A stretch of 64,000 bases of DNA from Calditrichota bacterium (GTDB lineage: Bacteria > Calditrichota > Calditrichia > RBG-13-44-9 > J042): assembly GCA_013150955.1 (NCBI GenBank), contig JAADJD010000015.1, forward strand, positions 31,315 to 95,314, written 5' to 3'. The position numbers and the translations under genes are program-made. The notes under the pieces are model-generated. The model ran no database searches. It was not told the DNA's origin and saw only the letters and a program-made list of their open reading frames with translations. This document shows, piece by piece, positions 1 through 64,000 of this stretch; the stretch's first letter is position 1, and each line of letters begins with the position of its first letter.

Positions 1-161
1 GGAAACAGTCGGCGGGTGATTTTTGTCCCCTCGAGAGAAAGTGCGTTCACTCTACCGACTCACTTGCTTTCTCTCGGTTATCCCGTTTAATTAAGGATAG
101 GGACACTCCTGTTAAAATTCTTGAATTCCCAGAACTTGCCCAACAACGGGAGACCCACCTG

Positions 162-190
162 TGGTGGAAAAGCCCGGTGTTTTTCCACCA
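162..190. other. Perfect 10-bp inverted repeat upstream of the transporter
   Basis: TGGTGGAAAA (162-171) is followed after 9 bases by its exact reverse complement (181-190). It lies about 95 bp upstream of the NSS transporter start and is followed by an A-rich rather than T-rich run, so it is either an operator/attenuator or the end of a gene lying to the left. Bases 1-161 show nothing else I can support. Confidence 0.45.
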
Positions 191-284
191 ATAAAAAATA
201 ATCCACCATTTGTTAGACCGTAAAATTTTTTTATAATTCCATTTGGCAAATGACCGGGTAGCTGATTGAACACAGGGAGCCAGA

Positions 285-6752: not shown

Positions 6753-6865
6753 TGCCCGATCCTTTGTCTGATCTTTTGAACATCAACAAGCCGAAATATA
6801 GTACGACAAACCGTAATTGACACGAAAAAAATCAGAATAGCAGGGGGCTACATTTGAAAATTTAA

Positions 6866-7038
6866 CCCAGATTATGCATTAGACCACGAATTGCACGAAT
6901 TAACACAAATAAAAATAATCAAATACATTAGATCAGATCTGGATGAAAATTCGAAAATTCGTTTCGAAGTTTATTCACGATATTATTGATATTTTTGGGT
7001 TTCATTCGCGTGATTCGCGGTTTAAGGCATTATTTGGG
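6866..7038. mobile_element. MITE-like element, copy A
   Basis: An AT-rich element that begins CCCAGATTATGCATTAG and ends with the related inverted sequence GCATTATTTGGG. It is flanked on both sides by the 5-bp sequence TTTAA (6861-6865 and 7039-7043), a target-site duplication. Its right end is 28 bp upstream of the YhaM-like start, so it may carry or displace that gene's promoter. Confidence 0.8.
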
Positions 7039-7065
7039 TTTAATTTAAAATCCAGGAGCCCGATC

Positions 7066-8088
7066 ATGGCGAAAACGGCACAGCGACAGGGGATAAAAAC
7101 CGCTCCGCTTGGGGAGCCTTATGTGGGGTTTTGTGTGGTTCGGCGTAAGGAAATCCGCTATAAACAGGATGGGCGTCCGTATCTGGTATTGGAATTTGGG
7201 GATTGGAGCGGCCGGCTGAAAGCGCGCATCTGGGAAAACGTTCAACAATGGGATCGGCACATACCCGAAGGAGCCATCGTAAAAATTAAAGCCATTCCCC
7301 AGATGTTTAATGACTTAAAGGAATTGAAGGTGCAGAAGATACGCTTGAAGCGGGAACAGGAGCAAATCGACATTCACCAGCTTTTGCCTTCGGTGAACAA
7401 AAATGTTTCGGAATTGAAAAGCCGATTTCACGATCATTTGTTCAGCGTCCGGCACGGCCATTTACGGCAGCTGCTGGATCGGATTTTTGCGGATGATGGA
7501 TTCAAAGAACAATATTTCTTAACCCCTGGGGGAAAGCTATGGCACCACGTGTACCTGTACGGGATGCTGGATCATGTGGTGGGGATGCTGGAGGTGGCCA
7601 CGGCACTTTCCAAAGATGATCCCTGGCTTCATATGGATCTGTTAAAAACGGGCATTATCTTACACGACATTGGGAAAGTGTGGGAGCTGGATATTTCCCG
7701 TGGATTTATTGAGCTTTCCGATCAGGGGCGTTTATTCGGGCATGTTGTTCGTGGATTTAGTTTTGTCGAACGGCATGTGCGGGAGATGGGTGATTTTCCA
7801 TCCGAACTCTGGCTCCAGCTGGGGCATATGATTTTGAGCCATCCGGGGGAGCCCGAAAAAGGCGCCCCCGTCGTTCCCATGACGCGTGAGGCGATGGCTT
7901 TATCGTTGATCAATCAACTGGACGGAAATTTAAATGCGTTACAGCGAATCCTGCGTGCCGACGTGCCTCCGGGCTCGAAATGGAGTAAGTTCGTGCCCTT
8001 ACTTGGTCGTTTTATTCACGTAAGTCATCCAGCGGAACAAAATCACCAGACCGAAGATCAGGAACAAATGCATCTGGGCGATCCATAA
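7066..8088 (+). CDS. OB-fold plus HD-domain nuclease, YhaM-like
   Basis: This 340-residue protein combines an N-terminal OB-fold nucleic-acid-binding domain (about residues 10-100, PYLVLEFGDWSGRLKARIWE) with an HD metal-binding domain (about 150-310) that contains the HD pair in GIILHDIGKVWEL. This is the architecture of YhaM, a 3'-to-5' exoribonuclease that also acts on DNA. The ATG at 7066 lies nine bases behind an AGGAG site; an upstream in-frame ATG at 6943 falls inside the MITE and is rejected. The protein is slightly longer than the Gram-positive members. Function is assigned by architecture, not tested specificity. Confidence 0.87.
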   Translation: MAKTAQRQGIKTAPLGEPYVGFCVVRRKEIRYKQDGRPYLVLEFGDWSGRLKARIWENVQQWDRHIPEGAIVKIKAIPQMFNDLKELKVQKIRLKREQEQIDIHQLLPSVNKNVSELKSRFHDHLFSVRHGHLRQLLDRIFADDGFKEQYFLTPGGKLWHHVYLYGMLDHVVGMLEVATALSKDDPWLHMDLLKTGIILHDIGKVWELDISRGFIELSDQGRLFGHVVRGFSFVERHVREMGDFPSELWLQLGHMILSHPGEPEKGAPVVPMTREAMALSLINQLDGNLNALQRILRADVPPGSKWSKFVPLLGRFIHVSHPAEQNHQTEDQEQMHLGDP

Positions 8089-8108
8089 AATATTCATCCA
8101 ACCCTCCC

Positions 8109-8489
8109 TCAGTTTACATACAAACTACGGAAATTTATCCAGCGCTCCACCATGTGGCGGAAGTTCTTAATCTTGAACGGTTCTTCCAGATAATCCACAT
8201 TGGGGAACTGTTTTACCTTTCGAGCCAGCTCCTGAGAATTAAAATTGGAAATTAAAATCACCGGAATCTTCCGGAAACGAGGATCTTTCTTCAATTTTTC
8301 CAGAATGGTGATTCCAGAAGTGGGTTTTAGATTGGCATTCAAGATGATCAACGATGGCCGATCTTCCTTGATCTGGGACAGTATATGATCCCCCCCATAA
8401 TTAATGCAAATCTTGTAGCGATAATCGGCCAACAGATCGCGAATCAGTTTTGCCCGATCTTTGCTGGTTTCAAATACGAGTACCTTCAT
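8109..8489 (-). CDS. Stand-alone degenerate receiver domain protein
   Basis: The 126 residues form one CheY-like receiver fold, with alternating strands and helices and the end PFKIKNFRHMVERWI. Key residues are changed: the phospho-acceptor aspartate in the third strand is asparagine (LIILNANLKP instead of LIILDxxxP), the N-terminal acidic pair is FET, and the Lys before Pro-Phe is Glu (EEPFK). It is therefore an atypical receiver unlikely to be phosphorylated by the usual route. It starts inside the end of the preceding gene (8470-8718), a 20-bp overlap that indicates co-translation. A GGAG sequence lies about 11 bases upstream of the ATG. Confidence 0.8.
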   Translation of the reverse strand: MKVLVFETSKDRAKLIRDLLADYRYKICINYGGDHILSQIKEDRPSLIILNANLKPTSGITILEKLKKDPRFRKIPVILISNFNSQELARKVKQFPNVDYLEEPFKIKNFRHMVERWINFRSLYVN

Positions 8490-53342: not shown

Positions 53343-55547
53343 ATGGCCAAACAAACGAGACATCTGCTTTCCTGCCACTTCTGGCGAATCTTCGGGATTT
53401 TATTCATCCCATTGATGCTCCAGGGCGCCACCCAATCCGGTGCCCGCATTCAGGGTCGGGTGGTCGATGAGCATCAGCAACCCATGATCGGGGCCAACAT
53501 TTATCTGGAAGGAACCATTCTGGGGGCTTCCACCAACGAGAACGGGTTCTTCTTCATCGATAACGTGCCGCCGGGACAATTCACCCTGGTGGTGAGCATG
53601 ATGGGTTACCAGTTGTTCAAACGAACCATCCAGGTGACTGCCGGCCAATCGCTGGACGTGGGGACAATCCAGCTCCGGCCAGCCCCCATTCAGGCTGCCC
53701 CGATCGTGGTTACCGCCAGCCGTACAGAAGAGGTGCTCCAGGAAGCCACCACGTCCATCACCGTCATGCAGGAACGGGAATTCCGCCTGCGCAACAACAT
53801 TACCCTGAATCAGGCTTTGCAATACATTTCGGGAATCAATCTCAACGGTGGGCAGGTGAACATCCGGGGGGCAACCGGGTACACTCGCGGTGTGGGAAGC
53901 CGGGTGTTGCTTTTGTTAGACGGTCTTCCCCTGTTAACGGGGGATACCCGGGAAATTAATTTCGACGTGGTTCCTCTGTTCATGATCGAACGCGTGGAGG
54001 TGTTGAAAGGGGCGGGTTCCGCGCTGTACGGTTCCGGCGCGATGGGCGGGGTGATCAACATCATCACCCGTGGCATCCAGAACACGCCCACTTTTTTCAC
54101 CCGCTGGTATGCCGGCATGCACAGTGAACCCAGCTACCGTCAGTGGCAATGGTCTGACAAAAGCCGATTTTTAAACGGGCAATTGGTTGGATTTCAAAAA
54201 CGATGGGGAACACTGGGCCTATCGTTTATTGGCACGCGGGATCAGGATGACAGTTATCGCCAGAACGACTGGCGCCTGCGGCATACCGGCAGCGTGAAGC
54301 TCCAATGGGATATTTCTCCGTTTCAACAATTCATCCTGCATGGAAATTTGATGGAACAAAAACGGGGAAACTTTCTTTTCTGGAAAGATTTGCAACATGC
54401 GCTGCAGCCCCCAGAAGAGCAACGGGACGATTGGGTCCATTCCCGACGCGGTTACCTGGGAACCAGCTACCGACTCATTCCCGGGAAAGACCAGGTATTC
54501 CAGCTAAAGGCCCTCTGGTTTTCCAATTGGTTTGAAGATAACATCGGCGAACAAAACAACGGGAATCGGTCTCAATCCAACCAGGTCTACGGTGAACTTC
54601 AATACTCGGTAAAGAAAGGCATTCATTTTTTGACGGCTGGCATCAGCACGAACTACGGATGGGTCAATGCCAATCTGTTTGGCAGGCGCCAGGCTACCGA
54701 AGCTGCTTTTTATTTGCAAAATGAGATGCGCTGGAATCCGTCCTGGAAGGTTACCCTGGGCATCCGCGGGGACTATTTCGACGTGGATCAATTGAACGCA
54801 CAATTTCAAATCAGTCCCCGTCTGGGAATACATTATTCCCCCGGTGGAAGCACCCATCTTCGGGCATCACTGGGATGGGGATTCCGGGCGCCTTCCCTTG
54901 CCGAAGCCTTCACGACCACTTCCGTTTCCGGGTTTCAGGTCATCCCCAATTACCAGTTGAAACCCGAGACCAATTTCTCCGCCGAGGTTGGAATCAGACA
55001 GCAGTTTGGATTTGTCGATCTGGATCTGGCCGTTTTCAACAGCAACTATCGCCACCTCATTGAGCCCCGGTTTTTAACCAGCGGACAAATACAGTTTCAA
55101 AATGTTATCCGGGCGCGCATTACCGGAATCGAGGGCAATCTGAGTGGTAAGCTTTTTCAAAACCGTTTGATCTTCAATTATGGTTACACTTATGTCCATG
55201 CCCGGGATCTTACCCGAAATGATTATCTGAATTTCCGTCCCAGGCACCTGTTTTACGCCAGTCAGACTCTTCACCTGGGAACGATCCTCATAGGACTGGA
55301 CTATCGCTACATCGCGAAATATGACCGGATTGATCCCCGGCTGGAGCTTCTGGTGAAGGACGTGGATCAATACGTGCCGGCACACGTTCTGGACGGCCGC
55401 ATCAGCGCCATTCTGGTGACCGGAAAGTTTCCGATCCGCTTCACATTTCATGTCGACAACATATTGCAGTACTACTACACCGATCTGGTTGGGGCACTGG
55501 CTCCACTGCGGAAATATGTGTTTTCTCTGGAAATGGGCTTCCATTGA
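53343..55547 (+). CDS. TonB-dependent outer-membrane receptor with carboxypeptidase-regulatory N-domain
   Basis: A 734-residue receptor. After the signal peptide comes a CarboxypepD_reg-like domain (about 34-115, GRVVDEHQQPMIGANIYLEGT and FTLVVSMMGYQ). The plug (about 125-240) shows VNIRGATGY, VLLLLDGLPL and ERVEVLKGAGSALYGSGAMGGVINIIT. The 22-strand barrel (about 250-734) ends in an aromatic-rich FSLEMGFH. Plug and barrel resemble BtuB/FepA-like siderophore, cobalamin or haem receptors more than SusC. The ligand is unknown. A lipoprotein and the peptidase fusion lie immediately upstream. Confidence 0.93.
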   Translation: MAKQTRHLLSCHFWRIFGILFIPLMLQGATQSGARIQGRVVDEHQQPMIGANIYLEGTILGASTNENGFFFIDNVPPGQFTLVVSMMGYQLFKRTIQVTAGQSLDVGTIQLRPAPIQAAPIVVTASRTEEVLQEATTSITVMQEREFRLRNNITLNQALQYISGINLNGGQVNIRGATGYTRGVGSRVLLLLDGLPLLTGDTREINFDVVPLFMIERVEVLKGAGSALYGSGAMGGVINIITRGIQNTPTFFTRWYAGMHSEPSYRQWQWSDKSRFLNGQLVGFQKRWGTLGLSFIGTRDQDDSYRQNDWRLRHTGSVKLQWDISPFQQFILHGNLMEQKRGNFLFWKDLQHALQPPEEQRDDWVHSRRGYLGTSYRLIPGKDQVFQLKALWFSNWFEDNIGEQNNGNRSQSNQVYGELQYSVKKGIHFLTAGISTNYGWVNANLFGRRQATEAAFYLQNEMRWNPSWKVTLGIRGDYFDVDQLNAQFQISPRLGIHYSPGGSTHLRASLGWGFRAPSLAEAFTTTSVSGFQVIPNYQLKPETNFSAEVGIRQQFGFVDLDLAVFNSNYRHLIEPRFLTSGQIQFQNVIRARITGIEGNLSGKLFQNRLIFNYGYTYVHARDLTRNDYLNFRPRHLFYASQTLHLGTILIGLDYRYIAKYDRIDPRLELLVKDVDQYVPAHVLDGRISAILVTGKFPIRFTFHVDNILQYYYTDLVGALAPLRKYVFSLEMGFH

Positions 55548-56290: not shown

Positions 56291-56346
56291 CAAAAAATGT
56301 AAACATCCCAAAACTAAAAACTAAAACCAAACTAATGGAGGGTATC

Positions 56347-56829
56347 ATGAAACACAATATCAAAAAATGGTTGAAGGGATGGATGTTGGTTTTATTGGTA
56401 ATCGGGATTGTCTCCTGCGGGAAAGATAGCGGGACCAATCCCGAGGAAGAATCCCCTGGCATGAGTGCAAAGGTGGATGGGAAATCCTGGACGGCCGCTG
56501 CGACCAATGCGACCTATATTAGCAATGTGCTGGTCATTACCGGATCGGCCCAGGATGGTTCGAATATTACCCTTAGCTTAATGAATGTCAACGGCCCGGG
56601 GTCCTTCGACATCATCGGTCCCGACCCGGCGAATATGAACACGGCCACCTACACAGTCAATTTTACCCCATACACCGCAACCAAGGAAAAAGACGGTATC
56701 TGTAAAATTGAAAAATTGACCGATTCGGAAGTGAAAGGTACGTTCAGCTTCAAAGCCACCAGTGACAATAATGCTTCCGACGTTATTGAGATCACCGAGG
56801 GGAAATTCCTGATCCAGTTCAAGAAATAG
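56347..56829 (+). CDS. DUF6252-like lipoprotein
   Basis: A 160-residue lipoprotein whose signal ends at VIGIVSCGKD (Cys about residue 23). The mature part has the DUF6252-type beta sandwich: MSAKVDGKSWTA, LVITGSAQDGSNITLSLMNV, and a C-terminal pattern VKGTFSFKATSDNNASDVIEITEGKFLIQF. The ATG at 56347 follows GGAGGG by six bases. The stub of a paralogue with the same closing pattern lies 200 bp downstream, so this was a tandem pair. Confidence 0.78.
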   Translation: MKHNIKKWLKGWMLVLLVIGIVSCGKDSGTNPEEESPGMSAKVDGKSWTAAATNATYISNVLVITGSAQDGSNITLSLMNVNGPGSFDIIGPDPANMNTATYTVNFTPYTATKEKDGICKIEKLTDSEVKGTFSFKATSDNNASDVIEITEGKFLIQFKK

Positions 56830-57033: not shown

Positions 57034-57159
57034 GTGAAAAAATATGAGAACAACACCGTCGAAGGCACCTTCAGCGCCACAGTGCAGAGCGACAAAGACC
57101 CCAACGACGTGAAAAAGATTACTGAAGGAACATTTTCGGTAACGCTTTCAGGGCAGTAA
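57034..57159 (+). pseudogene. C-terminal stub of a DUF6252-like lipoprotein paralogue
   Basis: The 41-residue frame reads ENNTVEGTFSATVQSD and KKITEGTFSVTLSGQ, aligning with the last 40 residues of the intact lipoprotein upstream (VKGTFSFKATSD and EITEGKFLIQF). Signal peptide and most of the domain are missing, replaced by MITE copy N. It cannot be functional as a lipoprotein. Confidence 0.82.
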
Positions 57160-57315: not shown

Positions 57316-57373
57316 TGATAACGACAGCGTTCAGCGGCGGCGTTTAGCCGTCCGCTGGAATGGGTTGTTATGC
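57316..57373 (-). other. attC site 1 (distal end of the integron array)
   Basis: The 58-bp site runs from TGATAAC (57316-57322) to GTTATGC (57367-57373). Inside, CAGCGGCGGC and GCCG-T-CCGCTG pair with one extrahelical T, the attC asymmetry. The last base overlaps the stop codon of the ParE gene. No further site is seen to its left, so this is the array end. Confidence 0.85.
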
Positions 57374-57666
57374 TATTTTATTCTTCTCTTCCAATAGCCT
57401 GGTTTCCTGTTCAATTGCATGATTGCTATGATATTAATCTCATCTTTACCAATCTGATATATCACTCCGTATGGAAACCGATTTACTAAACATCTCCTCG
57501 TATTCTTTGACATCTTTGCCCAGGCTTCAGGGAAATGAACTATCCTCTGTATAGTGGAATAAATCTCCTTCGCAAATTCCAAACCCAACCCCTGCTGACA
57601 TTCCTCATAATAATCTATTGCTTCAAAGAACTCTTCTCTCGCATCAGGATGAAATGATATCTTCAT
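57373..57666 (-). CDS. ParE/RelE-family toxin
   Basis: The 97-residue protein matches the ParE/RelE fold: the N-terminal ISFHPDAREEFFEAIDYYEECQ helix, a strand pair around RRCLVNRFPYGVIYQIGKDEINIIAIMQLNRKPGYWKRR. RelE members cleave mRNA at the ribosome and ParE members poison gyrase; this sequence with its YY and RFPYGVIY motifs is closer to the ParE branch. It starts at the last base of the antitoxin stop (TAATG), so it is translationally coupled. Toxin-antitoxin pairs are common stabilisers of large cassette arrays. Confidence 0.88.
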   Translation of the reverse strand: MKISFHPDAREEFFEAIDYYEECQQGLGLEFAKEIYSTIQRIVHFPEAWAKMSKNTRRCLVNRFPYGVIYQIGKDEINIIAIMQLNRKPGYWKRRIK

Positions 57667-57896
57667 TACTTATTATATCTTCTCTTAACCTCCTCAAATA
57701 CTTCTTCAGCAGGAATAGTCTTCACCTTTCCATTCCTTATCTCTTTTACCCTTCTCTCTGCCTCTTGAGCCCATAGTTTATCTATTTCTTTTTGTGTAGG
57801 ATGTAGAGTATTTAAAATCTTCTCTATTAACTTAGTCTTAATATCTACAGGTAAGGACTCTACCATTGCCATGAGTTCATCTGTCTTTATACTCAT
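57666..57896 (-). CDS. Addiction-module antitoxin (TIGR02574/PF09720 type)
   Basis: A 76-residue acidic helical protein with the family pattern: an N-terminal helix around LMAMVESLPVDIKTKLIEKIL, LHPTQKEIDKLWAQEAERRVKEIRNGKVKTIPAEEVFEEVKRRY. These 'addiction module component' antitoxins pair with RelE/ParE toxins and lie just upstream, as here. GCATAAC at 57929-57935 lies 33 bp before its start and could be the cassette's leading core. An insertion sequence sits about 140 bp upstream. Confidence 0.87.
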   Translation of the reverse strand: MSIKTDELMAMVESLPVDIKTKLIEKILNTLHPTQKEIDKLWAQEAERRVKEIRNGKVKTIPAEEVFEEVKRRYNK

Positions 57897-58034
57897 ATCT
57901 CACTCCTTTTTTGTCCTTTATTATCTTAGCATAACATTCCAATTAAATTTATTCTACAGAATTCCAATTTTGGTTAAATATAGCTAAAAATGATAGAATA
58001 TCAAAAATATTTATTTTGTATTTATTATATCGCA
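57897..58034. other. AT-rich leader between antitoxin and insertion sequence
   Basis: Contains GCATAAC (57929-57935), a possible cassette core; no attC-like stem accompanies it. Probably the promoter region of the toxin-antitoxin pair, now separated from attC 2 by the insertion sequence. Confidence 0.4.
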
Positions 58035-59389
58035 TTGCCTCATATTAAATGTAACCGAAACGATTTAGAAAAAGCTTCGTTGCCTCATAATTTATGTTAC
58101 CCAAAATTGAGGCCTTTAATAATGACCAACGAAGCCCGTAGAGAGTATTTGGAGGAGATTTTGCATTTTGCCACGTTATCGCACCGCCAGTCGCCAGGAG
58201 AAAAAACGCATCCCGGATGAATTCTGTATCAACTGTGGTTACCACCGTAAATATGCCATTCGTTTGCTTAACTCCTCTGTTAAAACGCGCCGTAAAACCC
58301 CACGCAAACGGGGCCCCAAAGCCCGATATGATGCCCCACAAATCCTACAGGTCATTATGGATTTCTGGAAACGTACCAACCTACCATGCTCGAAGCGGTT
58401 AAAAGTCATTCTGCAGCTCTGGCTACCTTTCTACCCCTATTATCTGCCCGCTCACATCGAAGAGAAACTCCACACCATCTCCCCGGCCACTATCGACCGC
58501 CTGATGAGCCCCATGCGGAAACGAGCCTCCAAAATCGGCTTGCCAACCACCAAACCCGGGAGCATCCTGAAAAAACATATCCCCATTAATGCCAATCAAT
58601 GGGACGAAACCCGGCCAGGATTCCTGGAAGCCGATACCCTGGCACACTGTGGTAGCTCCGTGGCCGGCTCTTTCATTTATACCCTTAATTGTGTCGATAT
58701 TGCTACCGGATGGCATATCCAGCGTGCCGTGTGGGGCAAAGGCCAACGCGGCATTATCTCCGCCATACAAAGCATGGAAGAAGCCCTGCCATTTCCAATT
58801 CGAGAATTCGACTGTGACAATGGATCCGAATTCCTCAACTGGCATCTGCTGCGACACTTCTCCAAGCGAAAACAACCCATTCAATTTACCCGTTCCAGAC
58901 CCTATCACAAAAACGACAACGCCCATATCGAAGAAAAAAACTGGTCCGTCATCCGACAATACCTGGGCTATCAACGATTCGACCAACCTCAATTGCTCCC
59001 CATGCTCAATGACCTCTATAGCACGGAATGGTATGACTACTTTAATTTCTTTATCCCTTCTATGAAACTGGTGAATAAATATCGAAAAGAAGCTCAAATA
59101 AAAAAATTATACGATACACCCAAAACTCCCTATCAACGCATCATGGAATCTCACCATATACCAGAAGCAACCCAAAAAGCGTTGACCGCTCATTTCCAAC
59201 AACTCAACCCTATCCATCTGCAAGAAAAAATGTTCAAAAAAATTAAACAAATCATTTTTATCGCCAATAAACATCCCGAAACCATTCACCCTTCTAACGA
59301 AAGGAATCCGTCCTATGAACAGCAATAATAAACTCACGATTTCACATTGGATTATTTCTCCTCTAAAGTTACCTTTTAATATGAGGCAA
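58035..59389. mobile_element. Insertion sequence inside the cassette array
   Basis: A 1.35-kb element bounded by the inverted repeat TTGCCTCATATTAAA (58035-58049) and its complement (59375-59389), extending as near-matches GTAAC/GTTAC. A second, diverged direct copy of the left end (TTGCCTCATAATTTA) begins at 58080. One transposase gene fills it. No clear target duplication was found in the flanks. Confidence 0.8.
58122..59328 (+). pseudogene. DDE transposase, frameshifted near the start by a 7-bp duplication
   Basis: The main frame (from TTG 58168) encodes a 386-residue DDE/integrase-core transposase: an N-terminal HTH with RILLN-like CGYHRKYAIRLLN, then catalytic Asp in FLEADTLAHCG, Asp in EFDCDNGSEFLNW and Glu in NDNAHIEEKNW. 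The likely original start is ATG 58122 (TNEARREYLEEI), but ATTTTGC is duplicated in tandem at 58158-58171; removing one copy joins EEIL directly to PRYRTASRQEKK. Because only 14 residues are lost and GGAGGAG precedes the TTG, some activity may remain. Confidence 0.78.
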
Positions 59390-59428
59390 CTGGAACTAAA
59401 ATGTTTATTTTTAGACAATTATCGACCT

Positions 59429-59547
59429 TCATAACCCGCCGCAAGAAAGTTATCAAAGAACACAATAAAATGCATGGAACCTTAATTTAGAACAGACTAT
59501 ATACAAATCATAGGGAACTTGCTGCCTGGTTGATACAATTGTTAGGT
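59429..59547 (-). other. attC site 2 (weaker)
   Basis: From TCATAAC (59429-59435) to GTTAGGT (59541-59547), 119 bp. GCCGCAAG and CTTGCTGCCTGG give a partial stem. The right core touches the stop codon of the next gene in the same way as the other sites. The left end is 40 bp from the insertion sequence. Confidence 0.5.
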
Positions 59548-60260
59548 TATTTTTTAGTAAATTTTACTATGTTCTTCGCCAATTCTCGAAAAAAATGAGT
59601 ATCTTCAGCTTTTTTTAATGGAATCAACACCTTCCCACTTTCATCTAAAATAAATTCAGTATAAACTACTTGGTTAGTATGACTCGAAACGAAATATATC
59701 CAAAAACAGCCACCCAAAATAAATCGATATACTCTGTGAGCATCAACTCTCATCATCTGAGGGGGATATATCAAACCATCCAATATTTTATTTCCTTCCA
59801 TTAAAATCATGACCATAAAACAAGGATAGTCAAGTTTATTTCCTGGATTTTCATTTAACAGCATATTGCGTATTTTTATCAAATGAGGTCCTAGGGCTAC
59901 ATTTTGAAAAAAATCCAGACTTGATACTGCTGCCCTATATAATAAAGATAATTGAAATAACTTAAATTTTTTATAGTCAATTCCTTCTATTTTTAGTGGG
60001 TTCCCGTTTGTTATGTATATTCCAGTTCCACCATAGAAAACACTTCTTACATATTTTTCATAGACACTTAATTGAACTTCACAATCTTCACAAAGCAACT
60101 TTTCACGAAGTCCTTTCTGTTTAAAATGCAATTTTTGACCCTCTGATAAGGGGATAACATTAAATCTATGTTTTTCATCATACATTGGTTTATAAAAAAA
60201 CTCTGGAATTATGTGGGAATTTCTTAATTTTTTTTCTTGGCCACATAATTTACACTTCAT
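59547..60260 (-). CDS. Cassette protein with HNH-like CxxC zinc domain
   Basis: The 237-residue protein opens MKCKLCGQEKKLRNSHIIPEFFY, and LLCEDCE follows near residue 65: two CxxC pairs and a S-H-I-I-P motif as in HNH-type zinc nuclease folds. The HNH active site is incomplete (no clear second catalytic His), so nuclease activity is uncertain. The remainder is mixed alpha/beta without a known motif. The ATG at 60260 is 16 bases inside the leading core of attC 3; a TTG at 60287 would start inside that site and is rejected. Confidence 0.65.
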   Translation of the reverse strand: MKCKLCGQEKKLRNSHIIPEFFYKPMYDEKHRFNVIPLSEGQKLHFKQKGLREKLLCEDCEVQLSVYEKYVRSVFYGGTGIYITNGNPLKIEGIDYKKFKLFQLSLLYRAAVSSLDFFQNVALGPHLIKIRNMLLNENPGNKLDYPCFMVMILMEGNKILDGLIYPPQMMRVDAHRVYRFILGGCFWIYFVSSHTNQVVYTEFILDESGKVLIPLKKAEDTHFFRELAKNIVKFTKK

Positions 60261-60275
60261 GGCAATGTAATTATT

Positions 60276-60346
60276 TATTAACGACAAAGCTCACTTGCCG
60301 CATGGAGCACTAGCGAAATGCGGTCAAGTGCACCCATTTGTTAAAC
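60276..60346 (-). other. attC site 3
   Basis: TATTAAC (60276-60282) to GTTAAAC (60340-60346), 71 bp. CACTTGCCGCAT pairs with ATGCGG-T-CAAGTG, perfect except for one extrahelical T. The stop codon of the upstream cassette gene lies within the right core. Confidence 0.92.
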
Positions 60347-61080
60347 GGCCCTTTGAGATGTCGCCTTTGTAATCCTCTTTTTAAGCAAATAATTTGCATA
60401 CGATGTTGCTATATGAAGACGAAATAGAGCTTCATCATAGTCACTAATTCCTGCATGTGCACCGCTGGTATGGAGAATCGCCCATATTGAACGTCCTAGA
60501 TTCCATTCTTTATTATTAAGTAAGTTGCCTCGCAAATCATCGAGTGCAGCGTTCGGATCAGATCGAATCTGTCCACTTTGGGACTTCGCAAGTTGAATTA
60601 AAAAATCCTCCATGAATGATCTCAGTTGTCCATTACATGCCTCCCACCGTCCATCTACAAATGATGTATAGCTTTGATTATAATGTCGCCTTGCCACATC
60701 AAAGCCAAGTTGATCCAGTTTGGTTTCTAAAATTGTAATTTCTGGGCCAAGAGTAGCCGGTGCGGGTGTAGTAGGAATCAATTTTGAGCTATCCCATTCG
60801 AAACCATTTATTTTTAGGGAATGCACCAGGGGACTTTCCGAGTCAATAGATGTATGCTTAAAGACATATTCGACGAGACGTACAATGACTTTTTCAGCTT
60901 TTTTACAGGTGTCAATTGCTCTACCAAACGTACAAGCCTACCTGCTAATTCCTTAAGTGTAGAACCACTGAGTTTATCTTCAAGCTTAAATTCGTATGCA
61001 AGAATCCGAATCTCTTCTTTTGCCTGGACATTTGCAAGTGCTCGAGCAAGCTCAGCAAGTGTTCGTCGTGAAAATCGCAT
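60341..61080 (-). CDS. Frameshifted two-part cassette protein, possible -1 frameshift product
   Basis: The first frame (ATG 61080, behind CGGAG) encodes a helical N-terminal region, RRTLAELARALANVQAK and LKELAGRLVRLVEQL, ending at 60814. The -1 frame then carries KVIVRLVEYVFKHTSIDSES, FEWDSSKL, and a C-terminal helical domain with RWEACNGQLRSFMEDFLIQLAK and SGAHAGISDYDEALFRLHIATSYANYLL, ending at 60341. At the join the zero frame reads GTA AAA AAG, a slippery A AAA AAG (60898-60904). It is either programmed -1 frameshifting or loss of one A. The C-terminal pattern resembles abortive-infection/effector families, without proof. Confidence 0.62.
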
Positions 61081-61093
61081 GTATATTTTCTCC

Positions 61094-61218
61094 GTTTAAC
61101 AATAGCGTCAGCGGCGTGGCGTCGCCGTCCAACACCCACAGTTGGCGCATAACCTTGGCCCGAAATTCCGCCACGTTCGCGCGCAGTTCAGCCGCGTCCG
61201 CTGCACATGGAGTTAGAG
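61094..61218 (-). other. attC site 4 (long)
   Basis: GTTTAAC (61094-61100), a perfect RYYYAAC core, to GTTAGAG (61212-61218), 125 bp. CAGCGGCG pairs with CG(CG)-T-CCGCTG with an extrahelical T; the loop is large, as in VCR-type sites. Between this site and the next gene, 61219-61354 shows no coding sequence. Confidence 0.72.
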
Positions 61219-61354
61219 CGCGTTCTATCCAAATAAATTTTCTCCATACGCTAGCTTGCCACAAGCATAGAAACTATATTTTCACCGCTACTACCAGACT
61301 AAAAAGGACACTGTAAAGATGTTGCCAAGATGATGCTTTTATTCACGCGCAGCC

Positions 61355-61834
61355 TTATTTTACCCAGGCTGTAATGACAGCAAATACACCACCTATTAGA
61401 GCAACCCAAATTGGAATTAGATATGTCCATCTTTCAGCCAGTCTAATTTGGCGGTCATACAATTCAACAGCAGATTGTAATAAACGACCCACAAGTTCTT
61501 CAGGCAACGGGGAACGCCGATCATTTTCGTCTCTTGGTAAGACATGGCGCGCAATCAGCGAAACAATATGTGTGCTTTCAGGAGCAACGCGGAAGAATTC
61601 CGGATGCTCTTTAGCCACTTGCGTCCAAGAAGAGGCCGATTGAGGTAACCCTTGCAATTCCTGTTGCAGGCCTTGCTCGCTTCGATGAGCAGCTTTATCC
61701 AAAGCCAACACTTGGATTAATGCCATAACATCAGCTAAACGCCCTGGTTTTGTATACTGTAGCATCTGTCTGCTGGGAAGAACTCGTAAACACATAACTC
61801 TAGCTCCGAAAGAGAAAACTCTATGGTCAATCAA
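61355..61834 (-). CDS. Cassette protein with C-terminal membrane helix
   Basis: About 159 residues: a soluble part with RQMLQYTKPGRLADVMALIQVLAL and SASSWTQVAKEHPEFFRV, then RDENDRRSPLPEELVGRLLQSAVELYDRQIRLAERW and one C-terminal transmembrane helix (YLIPIWVALIGGVFAVITAWV). The start is uncertain: TTG 61834 is the first codon outside attC 5, ATG 61795 is possible, and GTG 61861 would lie inside the attC. I recognise no family. A soluble domain held at the membrane by its tail is seen in several defence effectors, but nothing more can be claimed. Confidence 0.6.
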   Translation of the reverse strand: MIDHRVFSFGARVMCLRVLPSRQMLQYTKPGRLADVMALIQVLALDKAAHRSEQGLQQELQGLPQSASSWTQVAKEHPEFFRVAPESTHIVSLIARHVLPRDENDRRSPLPEELVGRLLQSAVELYDRQIRLAERWTYLIPIWVALIGGVFAVITAWVK

Positions 61835-61842
61835 TGTAACCG

Positions 61843-61927
61843 TTCTAACGACTAAAGTCACCAGACGACAAGACGCAAACCCGAAGGGCGCAGCGGATTA
61901 GCGGTCTGGTGCACTGGCTTGTTAGGG
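61843..61927 (-). other. attC site 5
   Basis: TTCTAAC (61843-61849) to GTTAGGG (61921-61927), 85 bp. GTCACCAGAC pairs with GTCTGGTG-C-AC with one extrahelical base. The stop codon of the next gene lies within the right core. Confidence 0.88.
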
Positions 61928-62749
61928 GCCTTTATATATCTTTCGAGCTTCTATTGCACTATCCAATCTTCGATGAATAAGAGAAATTAAAGATAAAATA
62001 TCAAGAGCATCTTGTTCTTCAATACGCCACGTTATTTTAGGAGCATGAGCTGTTGTGTTTCTAAACATGCCAAATAAACCTTTGAGAAGATTCATAAAGC
62101 CTTTTTGCTCACTTCTTTCGCTCTCCGTTTGAAGCGTATTTAAAGCCAAATGAGGAATGCTATTTTTGAAGGAAAACGCCTCATCTACCAATGTAGTTCC
62201 ATCAGATGTTAAACCTGTCTTTAACCGAATTTTCTCTGCCACACTTTTTGTTGCCTCAAAAACTGCATGGAAATAGTTATCCACTAACAACTCTGCTTTA
62301 CAATATTTTAATATATCTGAATGTACATTGCGAGATATTAAAACCTCTCGCAATTTACTTGCTCTTGCCTCGGCTTCATTTATAGTTACTGCTTTCGTTG
62401 TTCTTCGTAATTTTCCATCTTCTCCGAGAACCAATCCCTCAAAACTTAATATTTTATTTAATTTATATCGAGTATCAACAAACCACTGTTGATTATCCAA
62501 ATGACGGGCAGGATTCATAGCGTGCTGTATAAAAACACAAATATTATTAGCGCAATTATCCCGTTCTTGTTTCTGTTTTAAGGCTTCATACAATCTCTTC
62601 CATTTGGTAATATCTGGGAAAGGGTCTTCAATATTACATTCATGGAGCAATTTACCAATTTGTGATCCTGTAAAACCTTGAACTGTATCACCTAATATTT
62701 TGGCAATTGATTCGATAACACTTAAATCAAATTTTTCTATTTTTGCCAT
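61922..62749 (-). CDS. TIGR02391 (Ymh-type) protein with HEPN-like motif
   Basis: The 275-residue protein has the TIGR02391/Ymh C-terminal domain: KYCKAELLVDNYFHAVFEATKSVAEKIR, LVDEAFSF, and FMNLLKGLFGMFRNTTAHAPK. RNTTAH is an R-x4-H motif of the kind used by HEPN ribonucleases, with flanking helices in the right order. HEPN domains act in abortive infection and toxin systems by cutting RNA. The ATG is 18 bases inside the core of attC 6, and the stop is inside attC 5. RNase activity is inferred from the motif only. Confidence 0.75.
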   Translation of the reverse strand: MAKIEKFDLSVIESIAKILGDTVQGFTGSQIGKLLHECNIEDPFPDITKWKRLYEALKQKQERDNCANNICVFIQHAMNPARHLDNQQWFVDTRYKLNKILSFEGLVLGEDGKLRRTTKAVTINEAEARASKLREVLISRNVHSDILKYCKAELLVDNYFHAVFEATKSVAEKIRLKTGLTSDGTTLVDEAFSFKNSIPHLALNTLQTESERSEQKGFMNLLKGLFGMFRNTTAHAPKITWRIEEQDALDILSLISLIHRRLDSAIEARKIYKGP

Positions 62750-62766
62750 ACTATTTTTCTTTTGAG

Positions 62767-62868
62767 CACAAACGGCCTGCGCTTCACCGGAAATGCCACG
62801 CTCGAAAAAACTTTCAAAATTTCAAAAAACAGACGAGTGGAATTTTCCGGTGCAAGTGCTTGTTATAC
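62767..62868 (-). other. attC site 6
   Basis: CACAAAC (62767-62773) to GTTATAC (62862-62868), about 102 bp. CACCGGAAAT pairs with ATTTTCCGGTG, GCGCTT with AAGTGC, and CCACGCTCG with CGAGTGG with mismatches, a long VCR-like hairpin. The left core is imperfect. Confidence 0.75.
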
Positions 62869-62870
62869 GG

Positions 62871-63803
62871 CTACAGATCAGAAGAATATTCAGCATCTAT
62901 TTCTTTAGCCATATCGATAATTTCATTTACTTGTTTTTCAATAAAAAAGACAAAAATATTGATATCTTTATCATTTAATCTTGATTGAATGTCTTTTGAA
63001 AAATAATCAGTAACCATTTTAATTGGATAGTCAATTAAATCCAAGTGGTAGTTCAACAAATCATAGGAATCTTGAATACCTCTAATTGCTAATTCCTTCT
63101 TAAATTTATCAATGGATTCTGAAATAAACTTTATATGAATTAGACCAAACTCATTGGGCATGTTTCCATTAAGAGTTTCATATATTTTTTCAAAATAATA
63201 ATTTAGGGTAAGCGGAAAACAATCAATGAGTTTATTTTCTCTATGTTTTTTCCTATGATTCATTTCATTCTCTTTTAAGATATTGATAACCTGTGTAAGA
63301 ATTTCCTTAATTTTAGTTTTTTGAGTATTAATTAATTCAACTACATTAACATGTTTTGAAATATCTTTCTTTTTTTTAGGATATGTAGTCATTAATGTAA
63401 ATCCTTTTGAGCATATAGATGCTCTTACAATAAAATTAAATGCATCACCTTTGCCTCTACCTCTTTTTGTCGGATGTCCGATACTATTATTTCTAATTTT
63501 TCTTATTTCATCGAGAAGAGTATCGCTTTCATATTTTATATTTAATGCTTCTGCTAAATTTCGTGTAGCATCCTGTTGAACAAATAGAATTTGTAAAATA
63601 CCATATAAAAGAAGATACTTTTCACCAATACCAGAAGGTTCATCTTCAATGAGGTATTCATCTATTGCTAATTCAGTATCACCGAGAACATCTAATGAGC
63701 TACACAACTTATTCCAAGAAATTTTATCTTTTAATAGATTAGATTGAAGTCTCGGACTATTAATATAGTCACGAATTTCTGTTACAAGATTTCTTATTTC
63801 CAT
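62871..63803 (-). CDS. Cassette protein with HEPN-like RN-x5-H motif, unknown family
   Basis: A 310-residue, very AT-rich, helical protein. Around residue 105 the sequence IRKIRNNSIGHPTKRGRGKGDAFNF contains RNNSIGH after a helix, the pattern of HEPN-like domains. The N-terminal part (ELAIDEYLIEDEPSGIGEKYLLLYGILQILFVQQDATRNLAEAL) and the pattern 'hydrophobic helix - RN..GHP' recall a family of uncharacterised proteins of defence islands. The C-terminal half is charged helix without a known motif. The ATG at 63803 is 15 bases inside the core of attC 7. Function is unknown. Confidence 0.6.
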   Translation of the reverse strand: MEIRNLVTEIRDYINSPRLQSNLLKDKISWNKLCSSLDVLGDTELAIDEYLIEDEPSGIGEKYLLLYGILQILFVQQDATRNLAEALNIKYESDTLLDEIRKIRNNSIGHPTKRGRGKGDAFNFIVRASICSKGFTLMTTYPKKKKDISKHVNVVELINTQKTKIKEILTQVINILKENEMNHRKKHRENKLIDCFPLTLNYYFEKIYETLNGNMPNEFGLIHIKFISESIDKFKKELAIRGIQDSYDLLNYHLDLIDYPIKMVTDYFSKDIQSRLNDKDINIFVFFIEKQVNEIIDMAKEIDAEYSSDL

Positions 63804-63817
63804 TACAATTTCATGCC

Positions 63818-63949
63818 GTATAACCTAAGTATAAGCTGCACAAGGGCTTAGACGTACAAACTATTGAATATAGTCGAAAATTTGATAAAAGCACTACGCT
63901 TAATTATTTGCAAACACTGCCCTTGTGTCAGCTTGAAGCAGAGTTATAC
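63818..63949 (-). other. attC site 7
   Basis: GTATAAC (63818-63824) and GTTATAC (63943-63949) are perfect inverted cores, 132 bp apart end to end. AAGCTGCACAAGGGC pairs with GCCCTTGTG-T-CAGCTT, exact apart from one extrahelical T. The window ends 51 bp later, so the array continues to the right. Confidence 0.93.
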
Positions 63950-64000
63950 TAAAATTCTATTAAAAATAAAATTTAAATGTAAAAACTGGTAATTTATTTA

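Follow-up and report, generated by a model that had tools for sequence, protein, structure and literature searches.

The right end of the window (the whole stretch of 64,000 nucleotides analysed here, C1:31315-95314, contig JAADJD010000015.1) is very probably the distal part of a decayed chromosomal integron, as suggested by its attC sites, the order of its cassettes, an integrase (intI) pseudogene on a second contig, and synteny. The host is a Calditrichia bacterium of the phylum Calditrichota with a 4.07-Mb draft genome in 66 contigs (completeness 99.7%, contamination 0.37%). C1 terminates at 95314, which is window base 64000, leaving no contig sequence past the right end of the window. The row of cassettes at this contig end, which a first-pass annotation of the window had proposed to be an integron cassette array, is a genuine one: attC score, shuffled controls and strand all support it. 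Its features are as follows.

57316..57373, plus strand: attC1, 58 bp, the outermost confirmed site and left edge of the array; the plus strand is the bottom (recombinogenic) strand; score 34.3.
57373..57666, minus strand: ParE-type toxin gene of a toxin-antitoxin cassette (Pfam PF05016, E 3.1e-7, above cut-off).
57666..57896, minus strand: antitoxin gene, addiction module component (Pfam PF09720, E 6.6e-15; TIGR02574 above cut-off).
58035..59389, plus strand: IS481-like insertion sequence (IS) in the first cassette unit, with a transposase open reading frame (ORF) at 58168-59328 (NF033577, E 1.7e-7, below cut-off).
59429..59547, plus strand: attC2 of the first-pass annotation, at most a right half-site (R'' GTTAGGT, 59541-59547).
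59547..60287, minus strand: cassette ORF, 246 aa, with a weak HNH-like zinc-finger N terminus (PF14279, E 0.02, below cut-off).
60276..60346, plus strand: attC3, 71 bp; score 26.3.
60341..61080, minus strand: cassette whose two ORFs (60814-61080 and 60341-60826) overlap in different frames; no family match.
61094..61218, plus strand: attC4, 125 bp, the weakest confirmed site (score 17.2, extrahelical-base pattern, unique partner).
61355..61861, minus strand: cassette ORF, 168 aa, with a hydrophobic C-terminal stretch; stop 136 bp from attC4, as first annotated; no family match.
61843..61927, plus strand: attC5, 85 bp; score 28.1.
61922..62749, minus strand: cassette gene with a Hypoth_Ymh domain, 275 aa (PF09509, E 7.3e-46; PADLOC PDLC03987, E 3.9e-93, residues 1-267).
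62767..62868, plus strand: attC6, 102 bp; score 25.4.
62871..63803, minus strand: cassette ORF, 310 aa, with an RNNSIGH motif that resembles HEPN Rx4-6H by eye; no family above cut-off.
63818..63949, plus strand: attC7, 132 bp, the final site before the contig end; score 26.4.

The sites were scored with a log-odds attC score trained on 27 attC sites, none of them from the present genome (class 1 integron plasmid cassettes, a cyanobacterial plasmid, a Gemmatimonadota plasmid, and arrays of Calditrichia relatives). The score combines core matrices, R-arm pairing, and a stem template that leaves the length of the loop free; the stem weights, parameters and priors were set by hand, without fitting. 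The top five scores in the whole window belong to attC1, attC5, attC7, attC3 and attC6 (34.3, 28.1, 26.4, 26.3 and 25.4, respectively), all with the plus strand as bottom strand. Across 400 dinucleotide shuffles of the region there was no match at or above 22 and a mean of 0.0375 matches at or above 17 per shuffle, and 187 kb of control DNA (strands summed) reached a top score of 17.2. The same score also picks up attC sites beside intI in relatives (eight at L046, nine at L048 and two at L047); some of these overlap the training set, so only part of this result is independent.

Six of the seven sites first proposed (attC1 and attC3 to attC7) are upheld by score (borderline for attC4), partner and anatomy. 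For each of the six, the left end given above is the top partner of the R'' end within 2.2 kb, and all six share one layout: the R' core, a spacer of 5-8 bases, three base pairs (some imperfect), an extrahelical G/C, a perfect 6-bp helix, an extrahelical T, and more helix. Class 1 attC sites show the same anatomy. The first-pass annotation had described a single extrahelical base in five sites; the bases do lie on one arm (L''), with two per site in six sites, T inner and G/C outer to the 6-bp helix. Plus-strand DNA folding, which had been proposed as a check, gave clear z values against shuffles for attC1 (-3.99), attC3 (-3.25) and attC7 (-4.46) and weaker ones for attC4 (-1.59) and attC5 (-1.35).

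Other searches of the region were less informative. A strict RYYYAAC...GTTRRRY search with folding recovered none of the seven proposed sites because their cores are degenerate, and an Rfam scan of the array region gave no relevant match. Genome-wide, the core patterns TAACG N41-71 and N72-102 TTGTTA revealed no additional site cluster; other cores would escape these patterns. Additionally, a first hand-made attC score was dropped as non-specific, since it also matched intergenic repeats. Related repeats of approximately 110-160 bp with inverted-repeat character, false positives of the attC scan, lie at window positions ~6898, 20417, 34858, 45580 and 47791; they contain …AATTAACACAAATAAAA… and …CACGAATCACGCGAATGAA…, and a similar stretch occurs at ~56914. 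A solitary hairpin at window 138-218 (minus strand), bounded by strict RYYYAAC and GTTRRRY, was the sole stem-forming minus-strand match reported by the strict search and is more likely a terminator than an attC site.

The array had been annotated as lacking a visible integrase, with intI and attI placed to its right and the sequence beyond 64000 suggested as the place to look. No integrase lies on C1 because that contig is over at 64000; the genome does encode a broken one. Integron-integrase remains were found at C33:87101-88255, at the right end of an 88-kb contig that terminates at 88283, 28 bases past the start of the integrase ORF. In a profile search of the genome, the remains matched TIGR02249 at 160 bits over positions 29-207, with further pieces in other frames; the curated cut-off of 265 was missed because the gene is broken. 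The remains keep the motif of the IntI-specific insert (additional domain), which distinguishes IntI from other tyrosine recombinases, and contain two in-frame stops and several frameshifts. They end after TDIPTI, before the GH...Y block, so that the end with the catalytic tyrosine is lost, and there meet a truncated PIN-like gene of the opposite strand. An alternative genetic code for the TAG stops was rejected in view of the additional frameshifts and the missing end of the gene. No intact integron integrase was detected anywhere in the genome by profile search of the contigs; C20 and C47 each carry an XerC/D-like recombinase, but these were discounted because they score far below the integron model. 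Judged from its coding sequence, the integron integrase of this genome is a pseudogene and predicted to be dead. At L007 (C33) 6848-7117, an antitoxin-like ORF is followed by a PIN-like toxin gene that is cut where the intI remains begin, which marks the point at which intI lost its end.

The position of the pseudogene links the two contigs. It is transcribed away from the end of C33, so attI and cassettes are expected past that end, which matches the orientation of the array in the window. To the left of the array, C1 carries a TonB receptor gene (window 53343-55547), and on C33 an amylase-like gene (L007:3114-6596) adjoins the intI pseudogene. In the sister species G001, the orthologues of these two genes are neighbours, 369 bp apart: the TonB orthologue (73% identity) at C93:7803-10010 on the plus strand and the amylase-like orthologue (55%) on the opposite strand at C93:10379-13906. 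Scanning C93 with the attC score found no attC-like site on that contig. Because the TonB and amylase-like genes are neighbours in the sister species, C1 and C33 most likely represent two sides of one gap in a single decayed chromosomal integron that lay between these genes and was split by the assembler; such splitting of integrons at contig borders in draft assemblies has been described by the IntegronFinder authors (PMC9024848). The layout recurs in a genome of the same order (L044), where intI is intact and five attC sites are present. Together, the matching orientation of the pseudogene and the G001 synteny agree with the original placement of intI and attI to the right. That C1 and C33 are physically joined, that attI lies in the gap, that recombination once took place and that the element is now inactive are what we infer from this arrangement.

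Several results weigh against this reading. The gap between C1 and C33 is without sequence, so attI and the join itself are unseen, and G001 is the only synteny witness. By score alone attC4 is borderline, tying with a background match at 17.2. The proposed attC2 (59429-59547) forms no stem: 199 of 200 shuffles equalled or exceeded its folding (z +2.02). A search over 2.2 kb, which allowed for a left half displaced across the IS, yielded no partner for its right half; attC2 is the one site of the original seven that fell. A covariance-model scan had also been suggested, and the self-built model R1 (loops cut out, training sites picked by eye from the first scan, spacers N-padded; not equal to the IntegronFinder model) found attC1 as its sole window match (22.6 bits, E 0.018). 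R1 also missed long-loop sites among its own training loci, so that the standard IntegronFinder test was not reproduced, and it was replaced by the score with free loop length for this failure on long-loop sites.

The sites could in principle be chance hairpins, terminators or another intergenic repeat family rather than attC, given that the whole-length folding of some (attC4 and attC5, at the z values above) is no better than that of many shuffles and that the window has other intergenic inverted repeats. However, five sites at or above 22 versus none in 400 shuffles, a two-bulge layout that is identical in six sites, and the location of all sites on a single strand and at gene ends make this highly improbable. 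A further possibility is that the contig end derives from another organism and was binned with this genome as a contaminant, since this is a draft of 66 contigs and contigs of metagenome-assembled genomes can be misbinned. Such an origin has next to no chance of being correct: the 95-kb contig of the array also carries genes in synteny with the sister species, the integrase fragment lies on an 88-kb contig with a syntenic gene, and the completeness and contamination values given above speak against it.

A more serious alternative was raised in the first-pass annotation, namely a cluster of attC sites lacking an integrase (CALIN). In a true CALIN the cassettes would never have stood beside an integrase and would have arisen as off-target insertions by an integrase elsewhere, the pseudogene on C33 being unrelated. 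The contig as assembled does have attC sites and no integrase, the array stops at the contig end, no intact IntI was found in the genome, and CALINs are common (PMC8618304, PMC9024848). Nevertheless, this origin is improbable in light of the pseudogene that stands at a contig end in matching orientation and of the outer flanks of C1 and C33, which are neighbours in the sister species; the remnants of intI most likely lie just across the gap. Because the integrase appears dead, the array would now be CALIN-like in function.

For the decayed chromosomal integron, the following history can be proposed. The integrase would once have inserted cassettes, each a gene plus an attC site, successively at attI, by binding the folded bottom strand of attC via its two extrahelical bases and exchanging it with attI. 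With intI now a pseudogene, the cell's own integrase would no longer move cassettes, and the array could change only by deletion, by IS insertion, or through another integrase acting in trans. An IS would have inserted into the outermost cassette unit, and the left half of one attC site would have been lost. New cassettes enter next to intI, and their age increases with distance from that gene; the presence of the IS and of the half-destroyed attC2 at the far, oldest end fits this picture of decay.

The cassettes lie head to tail with their genes on the minus strand, as first annotated; the exception is the transposase of the IS, on the plus strand in the unit between attC1 and attC2. The terminal inverted repeats of the IS are imperfect, with 16 of 18 positions matching (TTGCCTCATATTAAA), and its right end (59389) is 40 bases left of the proposed attC2, the left half of which was plausibly lost through an IS-linked deletion. 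The product of 61922..62749 matches the anti-phage protein PD-Lambda-3_B over its full length and is a predicted PD-Lambda-3-like anti-phage protein; no partner gene A of PD-Lambda-3 was seen in the array. PD-lambda-3 works as an abortive-infection system (PMC13190303). At 60341-61080 the cassette gene is split near an A-rich run and is apparently one frameshifted gene, reflecting either real decay or an assembly error. Adjoining the array, a reading of window 57040-57159 resembles the C-terminal part of a lipoprotein-like ORF (56335-56829), like a partial duplicate.

Integrases were surveyed in 40 genomes of the phylum, comprising the present genome and relatives that share at least its class. 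Of the 39 same-class relatives, 19 had an IntI above the curated NCBIfam cut-off; among 20 genomes that do not belong to the class there was none. At E 1e-60 it was found in 18/40 phylum genomes (15/23 good ones). Contamination or binning error is not the general cause, as intI occurs in the single-contig genomes G005 and G017 and on a 1.29-Mb contig in G021. Integrases seem to have entered Calditrichota several times, because a tree of 97 integrases contains nine Calditrichota-label changes, of which well-supported branches force four or more (the bootstrap had not settled). The pseudogene groups with two Calditrichota sequences and one labelled Myxococcota (branch support 99/85), and the branch that includes it has an N-terminal extension (L007 (C33) 8004-8255). 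L029, an intact relative, and L116:1914-3134 have two tandem SAM-like core-binding stretches (Pfam PF13495) before the catalytic domain. That integrons are widespread and repeatedly acquired in Calditrichota (IntI in about half of the genomes), and that one branch, pseudogene included, also carries tandem SAM-like core-binding domains that could recognise att sites differently from known IntI, is as a combined proposal rather doubtful.

Compared with known systems, the array shares with sedentary chromosomal integrons its head-to-tail single-gene cassettes that end in attC sites with R'/R'' cores, L arms and two extrahelical bases, an IntI with the additional domain, and toxin-antitoxin and defence-like cassettes. 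It differs in that intI is a pseudogene, attI is not seen (together with the Pc promoter it would be expected in the assembly gap beyond C33:88283 / C1:95314), few cassettes were recovered, and one half-destroyed site lies beside an IS. The window resembles a CALIN as conceived by Cury et al. (PMC8618304, PMC9024848) in having attC sites and no integrase; the difference is that intI remains are still present in the genome. Among Calditrichia relatives, attC sites of like build accompany integron integrases at L044 (in G004, JANQQU010000033.1), L046 (in G017) and L048 (in G021). Unlike the present pseudogene, the G004 integrase is intact. G017 is a complete 4.98-Mb genome with an integron (L022/L046) that has at least seven attC-like sites and whose intI carries one in-frame TGA and lies on the array's other side relative to its direction. 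This inverted layout, in which the 3' side of intI faces the array, was also observed at L069 (Gemmatimonadota), unlike L044 and the present genome.

In the literature, an attC cluster of the same phylum is listed as a CALIN of Caldithrix abyssi, with no integrase given and no analysis (PMC10295459, Table 1). G017 may be C. abyssi, which would explain the CALIN-only listing of that species. The word integron is absent from the C. abyssi genome paper, no description of a Calditrichota integron integrase was found in the open-licence literature (coverage incomplete), and a joint search for 'Calditrich' and 'integron' found no relevant paper. Integrons had been characterised in the first-pass annotation as mainly proteobacterial; 93% of complete RefSeq integrons are indeed from gamma-Proteobacteria (PMC9024848), but integrons are reported from at least 14 phyla, among which Calditrichota is absent from the review that covers them (PMC8618304). 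Given the C. abyssi CALIN, Calditrichota is not wholly new for integron parts, and the present array is an element of known type in an under-described host.

Overall, this study adds a phylum beyond those listed in the integron surveys cited here, with an integrase prevalence that is similar to or higher than the 20% given for Gammaproteobacteria. The toxin-antitoxin pair and the PD-Lambda-3-like protein agree with cassettes as a defence store. One suggested origin of CALINs is an integron that no longer has a recognisable intI (PMC8618304, PMC9024848), and CALIN cassettes are still mobilisable in trans (PMC9668308, the archaeal-integron paper). Here, synteny resolves an apparent CALIN at a contig end into what is most likely an integron whose integrase is dying, a route that has been proposed for the origin of CALINs.

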